Shown here: positions 11,329-16,088 of the stretch, piece by piece
How positions within the stretch are numbered: position 1 is the first letter of the stretch
How the letters are laid out: the number at the start of each line of letters is the position of its first letter
Source of the DNA: Tabrizicola fusiformis
Lineage (GTDB): Bacteria; Pseudomonadota; Alphaproteobacteria; Rhodobacterales; Rhodobacteraceae
NCBI RefSeq assembly: GCF_013328815.1
Contig: NZ_JABUHN010000008.1
Coordinates: 151,985-215,984, forward strand
Length of the DNA: 64,000 bases
Direction of reading: 5' to 3'
Made by a program: the position numbers and the translations under genes
The notes under the pieces: generated by a model
What the model was told of the DNA's origin: nothing
The model's database searches: none
The model's input: the letters and a program-made list of their open reading frames with translations, nothing else

Positions 11329-12432
11329 ATGAGCTTCAACACCTTTGGCCATCTGTTCCGCGTGACCACCTGGGGCGAAAGCCACGGTCCCGCGATTGGC
11401 GCCACGGTGGACGGCTGCCCGCCGGGCGTGGCGTTGAGCGAGGCAGACCTGCAACCCTGGCTGGACCGGCGCAAACCCGGCACCTCGAAATTCACCACCC
11501 AGCGGAAAGAGCCGGATCAGGTGCGGATTCTGTCGGGGGTGTTCGAAGGTCGCACGACCGGCACGCCGATCCAGTTGATGATCGAGAACACCGACCAACG
11601 GTCAAAAGACTATGGCGACATTGCGCAGGCTTTTCGGCCGGGCCATGCCGATATCACCTATCATCAGAAGTATGGCGTTCGGGATTATCGCGGTGGCGGG
11701 CGGTCTTCGGCGCGGGAAACCGCCAGCCGGGTTGCGGCGGGCGGCGTGGCGCGGGCGGTGCTGGCGGCGCTGGTGCCGGGACTGCGGATCAGCGGCTATA
11801 TGATGCAGATGGGGCCAAAGGCGATTGACCGCAGCCGGTTCGATGCCGCGGTGATCGAAGGCAACCCCTTCTGGTGCCCCGACCCGGTCGCGGCGGCAGA
11901 TTGGGCAGTCTATCTGGATGAGCTGCGGCTGGCACATAACTCGGTCGGCGCGGTGATCGAGGTGGTGGCAGAGGGCGTCCCGGCGGGGCTTGGTGCGCCG
12001 CTTTATGCCAAACTGGACAGCGATCTTGCCTCGGCGATGATGTCGATCAATGCCGTCAAGGCGGTGGAGATCGGTGATGGCATGGCAGCGGCCTGCCTGA
12101 CCGGCGTCGAGAATGCGGACGAAATCCGCATGGGCGCCACGGGGCCAGAGTTCCTGTCGAACCACGCGGGCGGCATCCTTGGCGGGATTTCCACCGGGCA
12201 GCCGGTGGTCTGTCGTTTTGCCGTCAAGCCGACCTCCAGCATCCTGACCCCCCGCCGCACCATCAACCAGCGCGGCGAAGAGGTGGACCTGATCACCAAG
12301 GGCCGGCATGACCCCTGCGTCGGCATCCGCGCCGTGCCGGTGGGCGAGGCGATGATGGCCTGCGTTCTGCTGGACCACCTGCTGATGGACCGCGCCCAGA
12401 CCGGCGGCCAGCGCGGGCCGATTGGCAGCTAA
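11329..12432 (+). CDS. aroC: Chorismate synthase
   Basis: Converts 5-enolpyruvylshikimate 3-phosphate to chorismate, the last shikimate-pathway step, using reduced FMN. The 367-residue protein begins MSFNTFGHLFRVTTWGESHG and has GESHGPAIGATVDGCPPG, RPGHADITY and YRGGGRSSARETASRVAAG, the chorismate-synthase signatures. A good AGGAGGGC Shine-Dalgarno precedes the ATG. The stop overlaps by 4 bp (CTAA) with the stop of the convergent ferredoxin gene. Confidence 0.97.
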   Translation: MSFNTFGHLFRVTTWGESHGPAIGATVDGCPPGVALSEADLQPWLDRRKPGTSKFTTQRKEPDQVRILSGVFEGRTTGTPIQLMIENTDQRSKDYGDIAQAFRPGHADITYHQKYGVRDYRGGGRSSARETASRVAAGGVARAVLAALVPGLRISGYMMQMGPKAIDRSRFDAAVIEGNPFWCPDPVAAADWAVYLDELRLAHNSVGAVIEVVAEGVPAGLGAPLYAKLDSDLASAMMSINAVKAVEIGDGMAAACLTGVENADEIRMGATGPEFLSNHAGGILGGISTGQPVVCRFAVKPTSSILTPRRTINQRGEEVDLITKGRHDPCVGIRAVPVGEAMMACVLLDHLLMDRAQTGGQRGPIGS

Positions 12433-12743
12433 GGCTCGGGCACATGCAGGATGATGCCGTCCAGCGCGGGTGTCATCCTGATCTGGCAGGACAGGCGCGA
12501 GGTGTCGCGCCGTTCCGCCTCGGCCACGTCCAGCATGGCATCCTCAAAGGTTTCCGGGCTGCCGGAGCGGTCGGCCCAGACGGCATCGACATAGACATGG
12601 CAGGTCGCACAGGACAGTGACCCGCCGCATTCGCCCACCACGCGGGGCACATTGGCGGCGACAGCGGCCTCCATCAGGTTCTGGCCTTCGCGGACCTCGG
12701 CGCTGATCTGGCGGCCGTCGGAGAGTATCCAGGTGGCTTTCAT
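12429..12743 (-). CDS. [2Fe-2S] ferredoxin, adrenodoxin/P450-partner type
   Basis: A 104-residue ferredoxin with cluster ligands C39, C45, C48 and C86 (pattern Cx5Cx2C...C), as in adrenodoxin, putidaredoxin and other P450 electron donors. It ends a short operon: P450, then glutamine synthetase-like, then this gene, 7 bp after the ligase stop. The position supports a role as electron donor to the P450 at 14073-15329. No ferredoxin reductase is present nearby, so a reductase encoded elsewhere must reduce it. The start at 12743 matches the family N-terminus; an in-frame start at 12788 would run into the preceding gene. Confidence 0.88.
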   Translation of the reverse strand: MKATWILSDGRQISAEVREGQNLMEAAVAANVPRVVGECGGSLSCATCHVYVDAVWADRSGSPETFEDAMLDVAEAERRDTSRLSCQIRMTPALDGIILHVPEP

Positions 12744-12750
12744 CGCGGCC

Positions 12751-14072: not shown

Positions 14073-15329
14073 CTATTGCATGGTGATGCGGACGGGCAGT
14101 TCCTTGATGCCGCCCACAAAGTTGGAACGCAGGAATTTTTGCTCTCCGGCAGGTTCGATCCTGCGGATCCGTTTCGCAAGCTCTTCGAAGAGAACGCGAA
14201 CCTCCAGCCGGGCCAGCCACATACCAAGACAGACATGCGGCCCGCCTTGCCCGAAGGCGACATGGCGGTTCACCGTGCGGGCCAGATCGACGCGGAAAGG
14301 GTCGCTGAAGGCCGTTTCGTCACGATTCCCTGACAGGAACCAATACAGCACCTTCTGACCTTGCCGCACCTGTTTGCCATGAAATTCGAAGTCGCGGGTG
14401 GCCGTGCGGCGGAAATAGATCGCAGGGGTGGCCCAGCGGATGATCTCATCCGCCATCGTGTCCCAGACCTCGCCACGCTGCAATTGGCCCAGCAGTTCGG
14501 GCTGATGGGCCAGCGCCTGAATACCGGCTGCGATGGAATAGCGGGTGGTGTCATTGCCCGCAGCAACCAGAAGGCAGAAGAAGTTGCGGAATTCGTGTTC
14601 CGGCATGACCTGCCCGTCAGGGCCGGGCTGCAGGATAAGGTTGAGAACGCCCGAAGTATCGCCGCTTTCCGCCTTTTTGCGCATCAGATCCTTGGCATAG
14701 ACAAAGAGTTCCGCCCCGGCCGGAGAGTTGAAGGGCATCATGCGAAATTCATCCGTTGTCATCTTGTCGAGGACGTGGCTGGTAAAGTCCGGGTCGGTAT
14801 TGGCGATCAGCGCATCGCCACGTTCGACCAGCCAAGGCAGATCTTCGTCTGGGGTGCCGATGATGCGGCCCAGCATCCGCATGGGCAGTTGACGGGCGAT
14901 TTCGCGGGTAGCGTCGAAGGTGCCCTTTTCCAGCGCCGCATCAAGGATGGGCCCGCACAGCTCGCGGATCAGCGGTTCGAACTGCGCAATGACGGGTTTC
15001 GAGAAGGCTTTGGCAACCTTGATCCGGGTCTGCATATGCTCGGGCGCATCGGTTTCCTGAAAGGTGCGGCGGGCGAGGTATTCTTCATAGGTCTGATCCT
15101 CCATTCGAATACCGCGGGCGGAGGAGAGAAGGTCGGGCTGCCCGTTCAGCGCCAGAATGTCCGCGTGGCGGGTAACCGACCAGAAACTTTCCCCCGCGCC
15201 CCATTCGGTCCAGTGCATCGGATCGTCGCGGCGCAGGCGGGCAAAGGTGTTGTGCGGCGCGCCGGCAGCAAAGGTGTCATGGCTGGTCAGATCGGCGTGG
15301 CCGTCATCGGTGGGGGTCCAGATCGTCAC
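14073..15329 (-). CDS. Cytochrome P450 monooxygenase
   Basis: A 418-residue soluble bacterial P450. The I-helix oxygen-activation motif is AGNDTTR (about 257-263), the K-helix ExxR is EIIR (295-298), and the heme-binding loop FGQGGPHVCLG (about 359-369) supplies C367 as the thiolate ligand. The start is taken as GTG at 15329, preceded by AAGAGGAG at 7-base spacing; an in-frame TTG at 15359 lacks such support. It heads the P450, ligase, ferredoxin operon and is divergent from an amidotransferase across a 72-bp AT-rich gap. Substrate unknown; context points to a nitrogenous compound. Confidence 0.92.
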   Translation of the reverse strand: MTIWTPTDDGHADLTSHDTFAAGAPHNTFARLRRDDPMHWTEWGAGESFWSVTRHADILALNGQPDLLSSARGIRMEDQTYEEYLARRTFQETDAPEHMQTRIKVAKAFSKPVIAQFEPLIRELCGPILDAALEKGTFDATREIARQLPMRMLGRIIGTPDEDLPWLVERGDALIANTDPDFTSHVLDKMTTDEFRMMPFNSPAGAELFVYAKDLMRKKAESGDTSGVLNLILQPGPDGQVMPEHEFRNFFCLLVAAGNDTTRYSIAAGIQALAHQPELLGQLQRGEVWDTMADEIIRWATPAIYFRRTATRDFEFHGKQVRQGQKVLYWFLSGNRDETAFSDPFRVDLARTVNRHVAFGQGGPHVCLGMWLARLEVRVLFEELAKRIRRIEPAGEQKFLRSNFVGGIKELPVRITMQ

Positions 15330-15401
15330 GGGCAGGCTCCTCTTGAGCGGCGGATACAAAATATGCTAATGACATTCATAAATATGTAAAGCGGGAAGAT
15401 C
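15330..15401. promoter_or_regulatory. AT-rich divergent promoter/operator between P450 and amidotransferase
   Basis: A 72-bp gap much richer in A+T than the surroundings, especially 15353-15390. It contains an imperfect dyad around TAATGACATTCATA (exact inner arms AATG and CATT around one A) and repeated AATATG near both ends. It must hold both promoters of the divergent cluster and probably an operator. No regulator gene is adjacent. Confidence 0.45.
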
Positions 15402-16088
15402 ATGCATATTGCGGTTCTGATGGCGAACACCGACGAAAGCGCCTTTGCGCAGGCCCATCCGCGCGATGGCGAGAAGTTCCGCGCGATGTTGCAGGGGTGC
15501 CGGGCGGATTGGCGGGTCACAGTCTTTTCGGTGAAGGACGGGGAGTTTCCGCCCGATGACGCCCGCTTTGACGGTTGGCTGATCACCGGCAGCCCGGCCT
15601 CGGTGAATGATGATTCGGCGTGGATTGGGCGACTTCTGGCGCTGATCCGGCGATTGGCGGACGAGGGGCAGCCGGTTTTCGGCGCCTGTTTCGGACATCA
15701 GGCGGTTGCAAAGGCACTGGGCGGACGGGTGGGGCCAAATCCCGGAGGTTGGGTGTTCGGGTTGGCGCGAACAGAGATGGAGGGCGTTGGAATCAGTCTC
15801 TATGCGGCACATAGGGAGCAGGTTCTGGATCTGCCGCAGGACGCTGTGGTGCTGGGCGGCAATGCGGAATGTGCGGTTGGCAGCTATGCCATCGGCCGGC
15901 GCATTCTGACCACACAGTATCACCCCGAGATGGGCCCGGAGTTTGTTGCCGCGCTGGTCGAAGCTTTTGCCGATAGACTGCCGGAAGAGGTGGTTGCACG
16001 CGCCCGCGCTTCGATCTCGGGGCGGCAGGCGGATTCGGACTGGATCGCGGAACGGATCGCGCGATTCTATGAAGAGGCGGTCAGATGA
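15402..16088 (+). CDS. Class I glutamine amidotransferase-like hydrolase
   Basis: A 228-residue stand-alone GATase1 protein. The nucleophile elbow GACFGHQ holds C96, and QYHPEM supplies H174 and E176, completing the Cys-His-Glu triad. No synthetase domain is attached. Such proteins hydrolyse gamma-glutamyl bonds of glutamine or related compounds; in aniline catabolism a GATase-like protein accompanies the glutamine synthetase-like enzyme. Here it is divergent from the P450/ligase/ferredoxin operon, suggesting it hydrolyses or moves the gamma-glutamyl group formed by that ligase. Its stop overlaps ilvA by 8 bp in convergent orientation. Confidence 0.85.
   Translation: MHIAVLMANTDESAFAQAHPRDGEKFRAMLQGCRADWRVTVFSVKDGEFPPDDARFDGWLITGSPASVNDDSAWIGRLLALIRRLADEGQPVFGACFGHQAVAKALGGRVGPNPGGWVFGLARTEMEGVGISLYAAHREQVLDLPQDAVVLGGNAECAVGSYAIGRRILTTQYHPEMGPEFVAALVEAFADRLPEEVVARARASISGRQADSDWIAERIARFYEEAVR

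Follow-up and report, generated by a model that had tools for sequence, protein, structure and literature searches.

A conserved glutamine synthetase-like ligase and cytochrome P450 cassette of Rhodobacteraceae, possibly connecting arylethylamines with arylacetate degradation

A four-gene cassette encoding a cytochrome P450 (P450), a glutamine synthetase (GS)-family ligase, a [2Fe-2S] ferredoxin and a class I glutamine amidotransferase (GATase)-like protein was analyzed in Tabrizicola fusiformis. The DNA examined was a 64,000-nt stretch (assembly GCF_013328815.1, contig NZ_JABUHN010000008.1, positions 151,985-215,984), called the window below. The genes and their intergenic region are arranged as follows; all four reading frames are open at these positions, and each product scored over its Pfam cut-off:

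12429..12743, minus strand, [2Fe-2S] ferredoxin of 104 aa, third gene of the operon (PF00111, Fer2, 42.4 bits)
12751..14043, minus strand, glutamine-synthetase-family ligase of 430 aa, predicted gamma-glutamylamide synthetase (PF00120, Gln-synt_C, 232.5 bits)
14073..15329, minus strand, cytochrome P450 of 418 aa with a GTG start (PF00067, 50.2 bits)
15330..15401, no strand, divergent A+T-rich intergenic region of 72 bp, predicted from base composition to be a shared promoter region
15402..16088, plus strand, class I GATase-like protein of 228 aa, predicted gamma-glutamyl amide hydrolase (PF00117, 51.3 bits)

The initial annotation of this DNA had described an operon of P450, GS-like ligase and ferredoxin genes with a divergent GATase gene, and this arrangement was found as described. 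The minus-strand operon runs in the order P450-ligase-ferredoxin with gaps of 29 bp and 7 bp, respectively, and the GATase-like gene is divergent from the P450 gene across the 72-bp gap. This gap is 56% A+T in a window of 64% G+C, and only 0.43% of the 72-bp stretches of the window equal it in A+T richness, which confirmed its reported A+T-rich character. The heme ligand C367 named in the same annotation is residue 367 of 418, in the motif FGQGGPHVCLG, and the Cys-His-Glu amidotransferase recognized there carries the triad C96/H174/E176. The cassette is flanked by chorismate synthase and threonine ammonia-lyase genes; the chorismate synthase and ferredoxin genes are convergent and their ends overlap by 4 bp (window 12429-12432). 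No ferredoxin reductase gene was present inside the cassette of the window.

The four-gene cassette is a real unit, beyond chance. Relatives were counted in 198 genomes of the window's family, Rhodobacteraceae, nearly all of differing genera, using thresholds of E ≤ 1e-60 for the ligase and E ≤ 1e-100 for the P450. The ligase was found in 44 genomes and the P450 in 43, with both together in 42, so the two are not scattered independently. G069, G087 and G166 are exceptions to the co-occurrence, the P450 of G166 being truncated by a contig end; in G145 some 24 kb separate the P450 from the ligase. Neighbourhoods were then compared in the window and, of the other 43 genomes with the ligase, in 40 (41 neighbourhoods; G044, G069 and G095 were left out). 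The P450 gene lay by the ligase gene in 39 of the 41. A GATase-like relative, in one case a 96-aa piece, was present in 38, on the strand opposite to the P450 in 30 and on the same strand in eight. Seen from the ligase side, the GATase-like protein is thus a stable partner in Rhodobacteraceae; two plasmid-borne GATase neighbourhoods were also examined and contained neither ligase nor P450. The ferredoxin is a loose member, matched in 20 of the 41 neighbourhoods, once only partially and apart from the other genes (L061). At L053:5657-5788 (G087), a P450 remnant beside an otherwise whole ligase and GATase represents a natural loss of the P450.

A wider scan with one genome per species gave 99 loci, the best 80 of which were examined (L079-L158). 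A P450 gene lay beside the ligase gene in 79 of these 80, in pieces in three (L118, L143 and L149). Within L079-L130 the GATase was found in 49 of 52 loci (one a piece) and the ferredoxin in 38; within L131-L158, mostly metagenome-assembled genomes (MAGs) labelled Actinomycetota and Chloroflexota, the corresponding counts were 2 and 0 of 28. In this latter group ligase and P450 stay together despite changed order and strand (2.7 kb apart in L152), which is good evidence that the two share a job.

The sequence of the ligase speaks for an organic amine, rather than ammonia, as acceptor. Its scores were 153 bits against GlnA type I (TIGR00653, cut-off 429), 174 bits against GmaS/type III (TIGR03105, cut-off 469.6) and 194 bits against the PuuA gamma-glutamylputrescine synthetase (NF045547, cut-off 650), and the window genome has a separate true GlnA scoring 639.7 bits. 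A tree of 33 rows, including seven paralogues from the window's own genome and with long branches flagged, placed the window ligase in a clade of 17 sequences with support of 100/100, which spans Alphaproteobacteria, one MAG labelled Granulosicoccaceae, Actinomycetota and Chloroflexota. Three IpuC-type rows formed a separate clade (99/98), NpaA1 and the pLME1 ligase another (AtdA1 itself is outside the tree), and the seven own-genome paralogues fell outside the window clade. Residues E129, E131, E220, H269, R339, R344, R355, E357 and R359, which we take to be catalytic by GlnA numbering, are kept. Positions D50, S53, Y179 and E327, presumably the ammonium site, are H, K, V and L in the window and are replaced in all 17 clade rows; with the catalytic residues kept, this argues for the organic amine. 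Position 327 is L or M in the window clade, L in NpaA1 and W in IpuC. E212 is retained in the clade, and N264 is changed, likewise in other non-GlnA rows. With the GS fold, the main catalytic residues and an altered ammonium site, the ligase belongs to the gamma-glutamylamide synthetases in the wide sense. Scores, tree and residues thus agree with the earlier assignment to a gamma-glutamylamide-synthetase type outside GlnA, and the phylogeny proposed as a check gave no grouping with true GlnA. Identity as GlnA, GmaS or PuuA was ruled out by the curated cut-offs, the tree and the ammonium-site residues; membership in the Ipu or Atd/Npa families was ruled out by the tree, and the mechanistic likeness to them was retained.

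The best solved-structure match of the P450 was a reconstructed CYP125 ancestor (E 4.5e-93), followed by CYP124, CYP126 and CYP125; natural CYP124/125 structures matched at about 1e-60, and membership in a CYP family conventionally requires about 40% identity to it. In comparisons with plasmid-borne gene sets, the window P450 shared 38% identity with that of the Sagittula GS-GAT-P450 set and 26% with the IpuC-linked P450s of Paenarthrobacter aurescens TC1. The motif AGNDT occurs in 38 of 38 clustered P450s and the heme loop FGxGGxHxCLG in 34 of 38; this loop exceeds that of the IpuC-linked P450s by one residue. It had been considered as an unusual feature and was dropped, because CYP124/125 show the same length. 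All 17 clustered ferredoxins have the pattern C-x5-C-x2-C-x(30-45)-C. The GATase-like protein combines a GATase domain with Cys-His-Glu, as in class I; its best solved-structure match was gamma-glutamyl peptidase 1 (E 5e-17), and by this kinship it is predicted to hydrolyse gamma-glutamyl amides. It shares 33% identity with NpaA2 and 32% with the GATase of the Sagittula set. Near the ligase-P450 pair of L132 (Actinomycetota) lies a PuuD-like gene of 106.6 bits, below its cut-off, and L140 (Chloroflexota) contains a Peptidase C26 gene as well as a GATase gene. Neighbours of the Sagittula set (S. stellata E-37 plasmid; L176, 4920-8227) are genes for a TRAP transporter and for ring-hydroxylating dioxygenase.

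The genomic context of the cassette points to ARYLACETATES. Among the 198 genomes, HpaD (TIGR02295) was found in 64, HpaD_Fe (TIGR02298) in 29 and either in 73. Co-occurrence was evaluated by Fisher tests over the 44 cassette genomes and 154 others, ignoring phylogeny. Of the 44 cassette genomes, 41 had at least one HpaD type, against 32 of the 154 others (odds ratio 52, p 7e-19). HmgA was present in 129 genomes, including 40 of the 44 (p 2.4e-5), and a DOPA-decarboxylase-like aromatic amino acid decarboxylase (AADC) in 93, including 39 of the 44 (p 1e-10). The control PcaG (protocatechuate 3,4-dioxygenase) showed no association (27 of 44 vs 98 of 154, p 0.86). Linkage was counted as distance from the ligase at the best listed place per genome: HpaD lay within 25 kb in 10 genomes, HmgA in 6 other genomes and AADC in 8, and PcaG in 0 of 27. 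Both co-occurrence and linkage were thus above those of the control pathway, phylogeny ignored. The decarboxylase that recurs as a neighbour has DOPA decarboxylase as its nearest match (7xin, E 4e-114) and resembles DOPA and tyrosine decarboxylases.

Individual loci agree with these counts. In G070 one stretch carries HmgA, FahA, MBL, FAD monooxygenase, nhaA, AADC, HpaI-like, GntR, GATase, P450 and ligase genes; HmgA and FahA scored over cut-off, and the stretch is interrupted by the minus-strand nhaA. The neighbouring FAD monooxygenase gave no solved-structure match at E 1e-40. In Ruegeria TM1040 paaABCD stand beside the cassette, at L097 both HpaD types near it were over cut-off, and FAH-family HpaG-like proteins (28-33% identity) are nearby in 26 of 27 loci of L131-L157. 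In the window genome HpaF, E, D_Fe, D, G, H and I are encoded on contig C57, AADC on C2 and the cassette on C58. Copper amine oxidase, the only amine oxidiser surveyed, occurred in 3 of the 198 genomes and 1 of the 44, too rarely for a test. As separate observations, the unrelated 3,4-dihydroxyphenylacetate dioxygenases TIGR02295 and TIGR02298 are adjacent at L097:15207-17051 and lie within 2 kb of each other in the window genome. At L166 of the window genome (G000:C57:178500-198400), positions 3484-13411, an amino-acid-permease-like gene, recognized by eye, and a distant GS-family ligase come after the homoprotocatechuate genes; this second ligase groups with that of the Sagittula GS-GAT-P450 set.

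Other neighbours also recur near the cassette in Rhodobacteraceae. UPF0261 (Tm-1-like; L057:1105-2340 and relatives) recurs with genes for a tripartite tricarboxylate transporter, a class III aminotransferase, an aldehyde dehydrogenase and an IclR regulator. A class III aminotransferase relative is paired with an APH-type kinase in 5 of the 41 neighbourhoods (L062, L045, L051, L054 and L074), a pair that, we presume, resembles amino-alcohol kinase/phospho-lyase pairs. None of the recurring clusters of other genomes (c3-c6, c8-c24) was found within the 26 kb of the window compared.

The initial annotation proposed no substrate; the genome context points to arylethylamines. Predicted supply by AADC and the three arylacetate routes leave a gap between arylethylamine and arylacetaldehyde, which the cassette is read as filling. 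We tentatively propose, with confidence close to but short of even, that the cassette glutamylates an arylethylamine, likely tyramine or dopamine, and that the P450 oxidises the side chain, likely feeding arylacetaldehyde to arylacetate ring-cleavage pathways. The ligase would couple the gamma-carboxyl of glutamate to the amine using ATP. The P450, reduced via the ferredoxin and a reductase encoded elsewhere, would then hydroxylate the carbon adjoining the amide nitrogen, and the resulting carbinolamide would split into aldehyde and glutamine. The GATase-like protein may hydrolyse accumulating gamma-glutamyl amides or free glutamate, and an aldehyde dehydrogenase would yield the arylacetate entering the homoprotocatechuate, homogentisate or phenylacetate route. 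Since all three linked routes begin with arylacetates, oxidation of the side chain is favoured over that of the ring. The Ipu and aniline systems may serve as precedents, by analogy, for glutamylation followed by oxidation.

Several points weigh against this proposal. We know of no activity for any member of the cassette families, and the Fisher tests take no account of descent. Neither HpaD nor HmgA lies within 25 kb in 28 of the 44 cassette genomes, some with short contigs; 3 of the 44 have no HpaD of any type and 5 no AADC. In the window genome no pathway gene is linked to the cassette, as the homoprotocatechuate and AADC genes are on other contigs, and the HpaD_Fe-, HpaG- and HpaE-like proteins of L132 in Actinomycetota score under the curated cut-offs. 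HpaB-type hydroxylase was found in 5 of 41 HpaD-positive cassette genomes vs 6 of 32 HpaD-positive others. Release of glutamine by oxidation would make the GATase non-essential, yet it is conserved. In G069 the 11.7-kb contig with the ligase carries an aminotransferase gene upstream of it and lacks a P450, and in G087 the P450 is reduced to a 45-aa remnant between ligase and GATase. Frequent neighbour clusters of the 41 are TctC (21), TctA (20), class III aminotransferase (18) and UPF0261 (16), and this tripartite tricarboxylate transporter/aminotransferase/UPF0261 module does not suggest an amine. In a divergent subfamily (L063-L066) TctA-TctC run straight into GAT-P450-ligase, all on one strand, an arrangement that may indicate a substrate with a carboxyl group.

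Extended further, the proposal would add to bacterial aromatic-amine deamination a route that is oxygenative rather than dependent on an amine oxidase or dehydrogenase. The glutamyl amide would be alpha-hydroxylated by the P450 and the nitrogen would leave as glutamine, so that a single step would yield both arylacetaldehyde carbon and assimilated nitrogen. The ligase-P450 pair would then operate with exchangeable hydrolases (GATase or PuuD-like) across Alphaproteobacteria, Actinomycetota and Chloroflexota. We regard this wider interpretation as less likely than not.

Conservation of the hydrolase also fits an Ipu-style course: the P450 would act on the beta carbon of the gamma-glutamyl arylethylamide and hydroxylate it, the GATase would free a beta-hydroxy amine, and a kinase with a phospho-lyase, or a dehydrogenase, would deaminate this amine. 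In the Ipu pathway, the closest functional precedent, the neighbouring carbon is hydroxylated, as far as the available part of the source describes it, giving an amino alcohol whose release needs hydrolysis; a GATase relative is kept in 38 of 41 neighbourhoods, with a PuuD-like gene instead in L132, and the aminotransferase-kinase pair occurs in 5 of 41. This pair, however, is rare and mostly accompanies the transporter module, and the arylacetate pathways do not need an amino alcohol. We consider beta-hydroxylation unlikely.

Hydroxylation of the ring, converting gamma-glutamyl-tyramine to gamma-glutamyl-dopamine before the GATase releases dopamine as substrate of a separate amine-oxidising enzyme, is improbable. 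The homoprotocatechuate route needs a catechol, 36 of 41 HpaD-positive cassette genomes have no HpaB-type hydroxylase, and the AADC resembles both DOPA and tyrosine decarboxylases. HpaB is, however, about equally rare in HpaD-positive genomes without the cassette, and as the frequencies do not differ it was dropped as a discriminator between ring and side-chain oxidation. The cassette also occurs near HmgA (6 genomes) and paa genes (TM1040), where 3-hydroxylation would serve no purpose, so these neighbours speak against ring hydroxylation, and the FAD monooxygenase in the same stretch of G070 could itself hydroxylate the ring.

Similarly improbable is that the substrate is an amino compound imported by the neighbouring tripartite tricarboxylate transporter, with the arylacetate link reflecting shared catabolic islands. 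The frequency of TctC and TctA (21 and 20 of 41) and their one-strand run into the L063-L066 genes would agree with it, but amino-acid-permease-like genes lie near the ligase-P450 pair in L127, L132 and L137, ring-cleavage-type neighbours recur across phyla, and the control PcaG is unassociated. That the cassette serves small alkylamines, for example isopropylamine, by an Ipu-like route is very improbable: the gene set is the same, but the ligase lies outside the IpuC clade, the P450 is just 26% identical to the TC1 P450s and the GATases compared hardly align.

If the side-chain proposal is true, a widespread bacterial family would have in the cassette a further way to bring dopamine, tyramine or phenethylamine into arylacetate degradation, and the P450 would recognise its substrate by a glutamyl handle that can be removed. 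It would also account for many Rhodobacteraceae genes named merely "glutamine synthetase family" and "cytochrome P450".

Among known systems, the Puu pathway (PuuA/PuuD) likewise glutamylates, oxidises and hydrolyses, as proposed for the cassette, but its oxidiser is a flavin oxidase, and the window ligase is far under the PuuA cut-off. The hpa (homoprotocatechuate) and hmg (homogentisate) genes adjoin the cassette in some other genomes; to our knowledge, the recognised entries to these routes include neither a GS-like ligase nor such a P450.

The P. aurescens TC1 plasmids pTC1 and pTC2 carry ipuC with P450, ferredoxin, ferredoxin reductase and GATase genes. According to the available part of PMC6776027, the product of IpuC is gamma-glutamyl-isopropylamide, from which a multicomponent P450 forms gamma-glutamyl-L-alaninol; the final release of L-alaninol is ascribed, as a postulate, to an amidotransferase. 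These steps are credited there to work on Pseudomonas sp. KIE171. As far as that account extends, the Ipu pathway (KIE171; TC1) resembles the cassette both in clustering a ligase, P450, ferredoxin and GATase-like hydrolase and in glutamylating, oxidising and hydrolysing, so gene set and step order were already known. The initial annotation had named IpuC and overlooked the P450 of its pathway, and its statement that no described system has this exact set fails, since pTC1 and pTC2 carry the same set for isopropylamine. The outline of its mask-oxidise-release scheme was supported by ligase type, P450 co-occurrence and GATase partner; the novelty of the set was not. The Ipu ligase nevertheless belongs to a different clade, the TC1 P450s are about 26% identical to that of the window, whose heme loop is one residue longer, and the TC1 GATases (one per plasmid) gave no significant match (pTC1) or E 0.005 (pTC2) with the window GATase. 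The TC1 clusters include a ferredoxin reductase, which the window cassette does not, and neither ipuC has an annotated ring-cleavage gene in its 8-kb flanks. The pTC1 cluster is bordered upstream (L161, 1-831) by a gene annotated as maoB, phenylacetaldehyde dehydrogenase. The conjugative plasmid pSR5 of Aminobacter sp. SR38 (L177, 3408-10410) carries permease, FAD oxidoreductase, ferredoxin, ligase, P450, ferredoxin and GATase genes, its ligase being 51% IpuC-like.

AtdA1A2A3A4A5 and NpaA1-A5 share with the cassette a GS-like ligase, a GATase-like protein and an oxygenase. In the accessible parts of PMC11335346 and PMC4539516, these aniline/naphthylamine systems combine ligase and GATase with a Rieske-type dioxygenase; the GATase returns surplus glutamyl amide to the amine, and NpaA2 is dispensable for oxidation. 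Their oxygenase is a Rieske dioxygenase (genes for ring-hydroxylating dioxygenases were found in the clusters of pJS3066 and pLME1), whereas the window partner is a P450, and the NpaA1/pLME1 ligases sit in a different clade of the tree, which does not include AtdA1. Pip-type clusters show a P450/ferredoxin/GS arrangement in the part of PMC9477822 available. By description in that part, rather than by sequence, the Pip/Mor systems of Mycobacterium and Gulosibacter are like the cassette in having P450, ferredoxin and reductase, with Gulosibacter GS genes numbered next to the P450; their substrates are cyclic amines, and that part does not mention a GATase. The literature search, with most subscription journals outside its reach, listed no title describing a ligase/P450 route for arylethylamines. 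If the side-chain proposal is true, it would also suggest "glutamylate, oxygenate, release" as a general scheme that has been put together repeatedly with differing oxygenases. What is new here is the separate ligase clade together with the arylacetate-pathway link.

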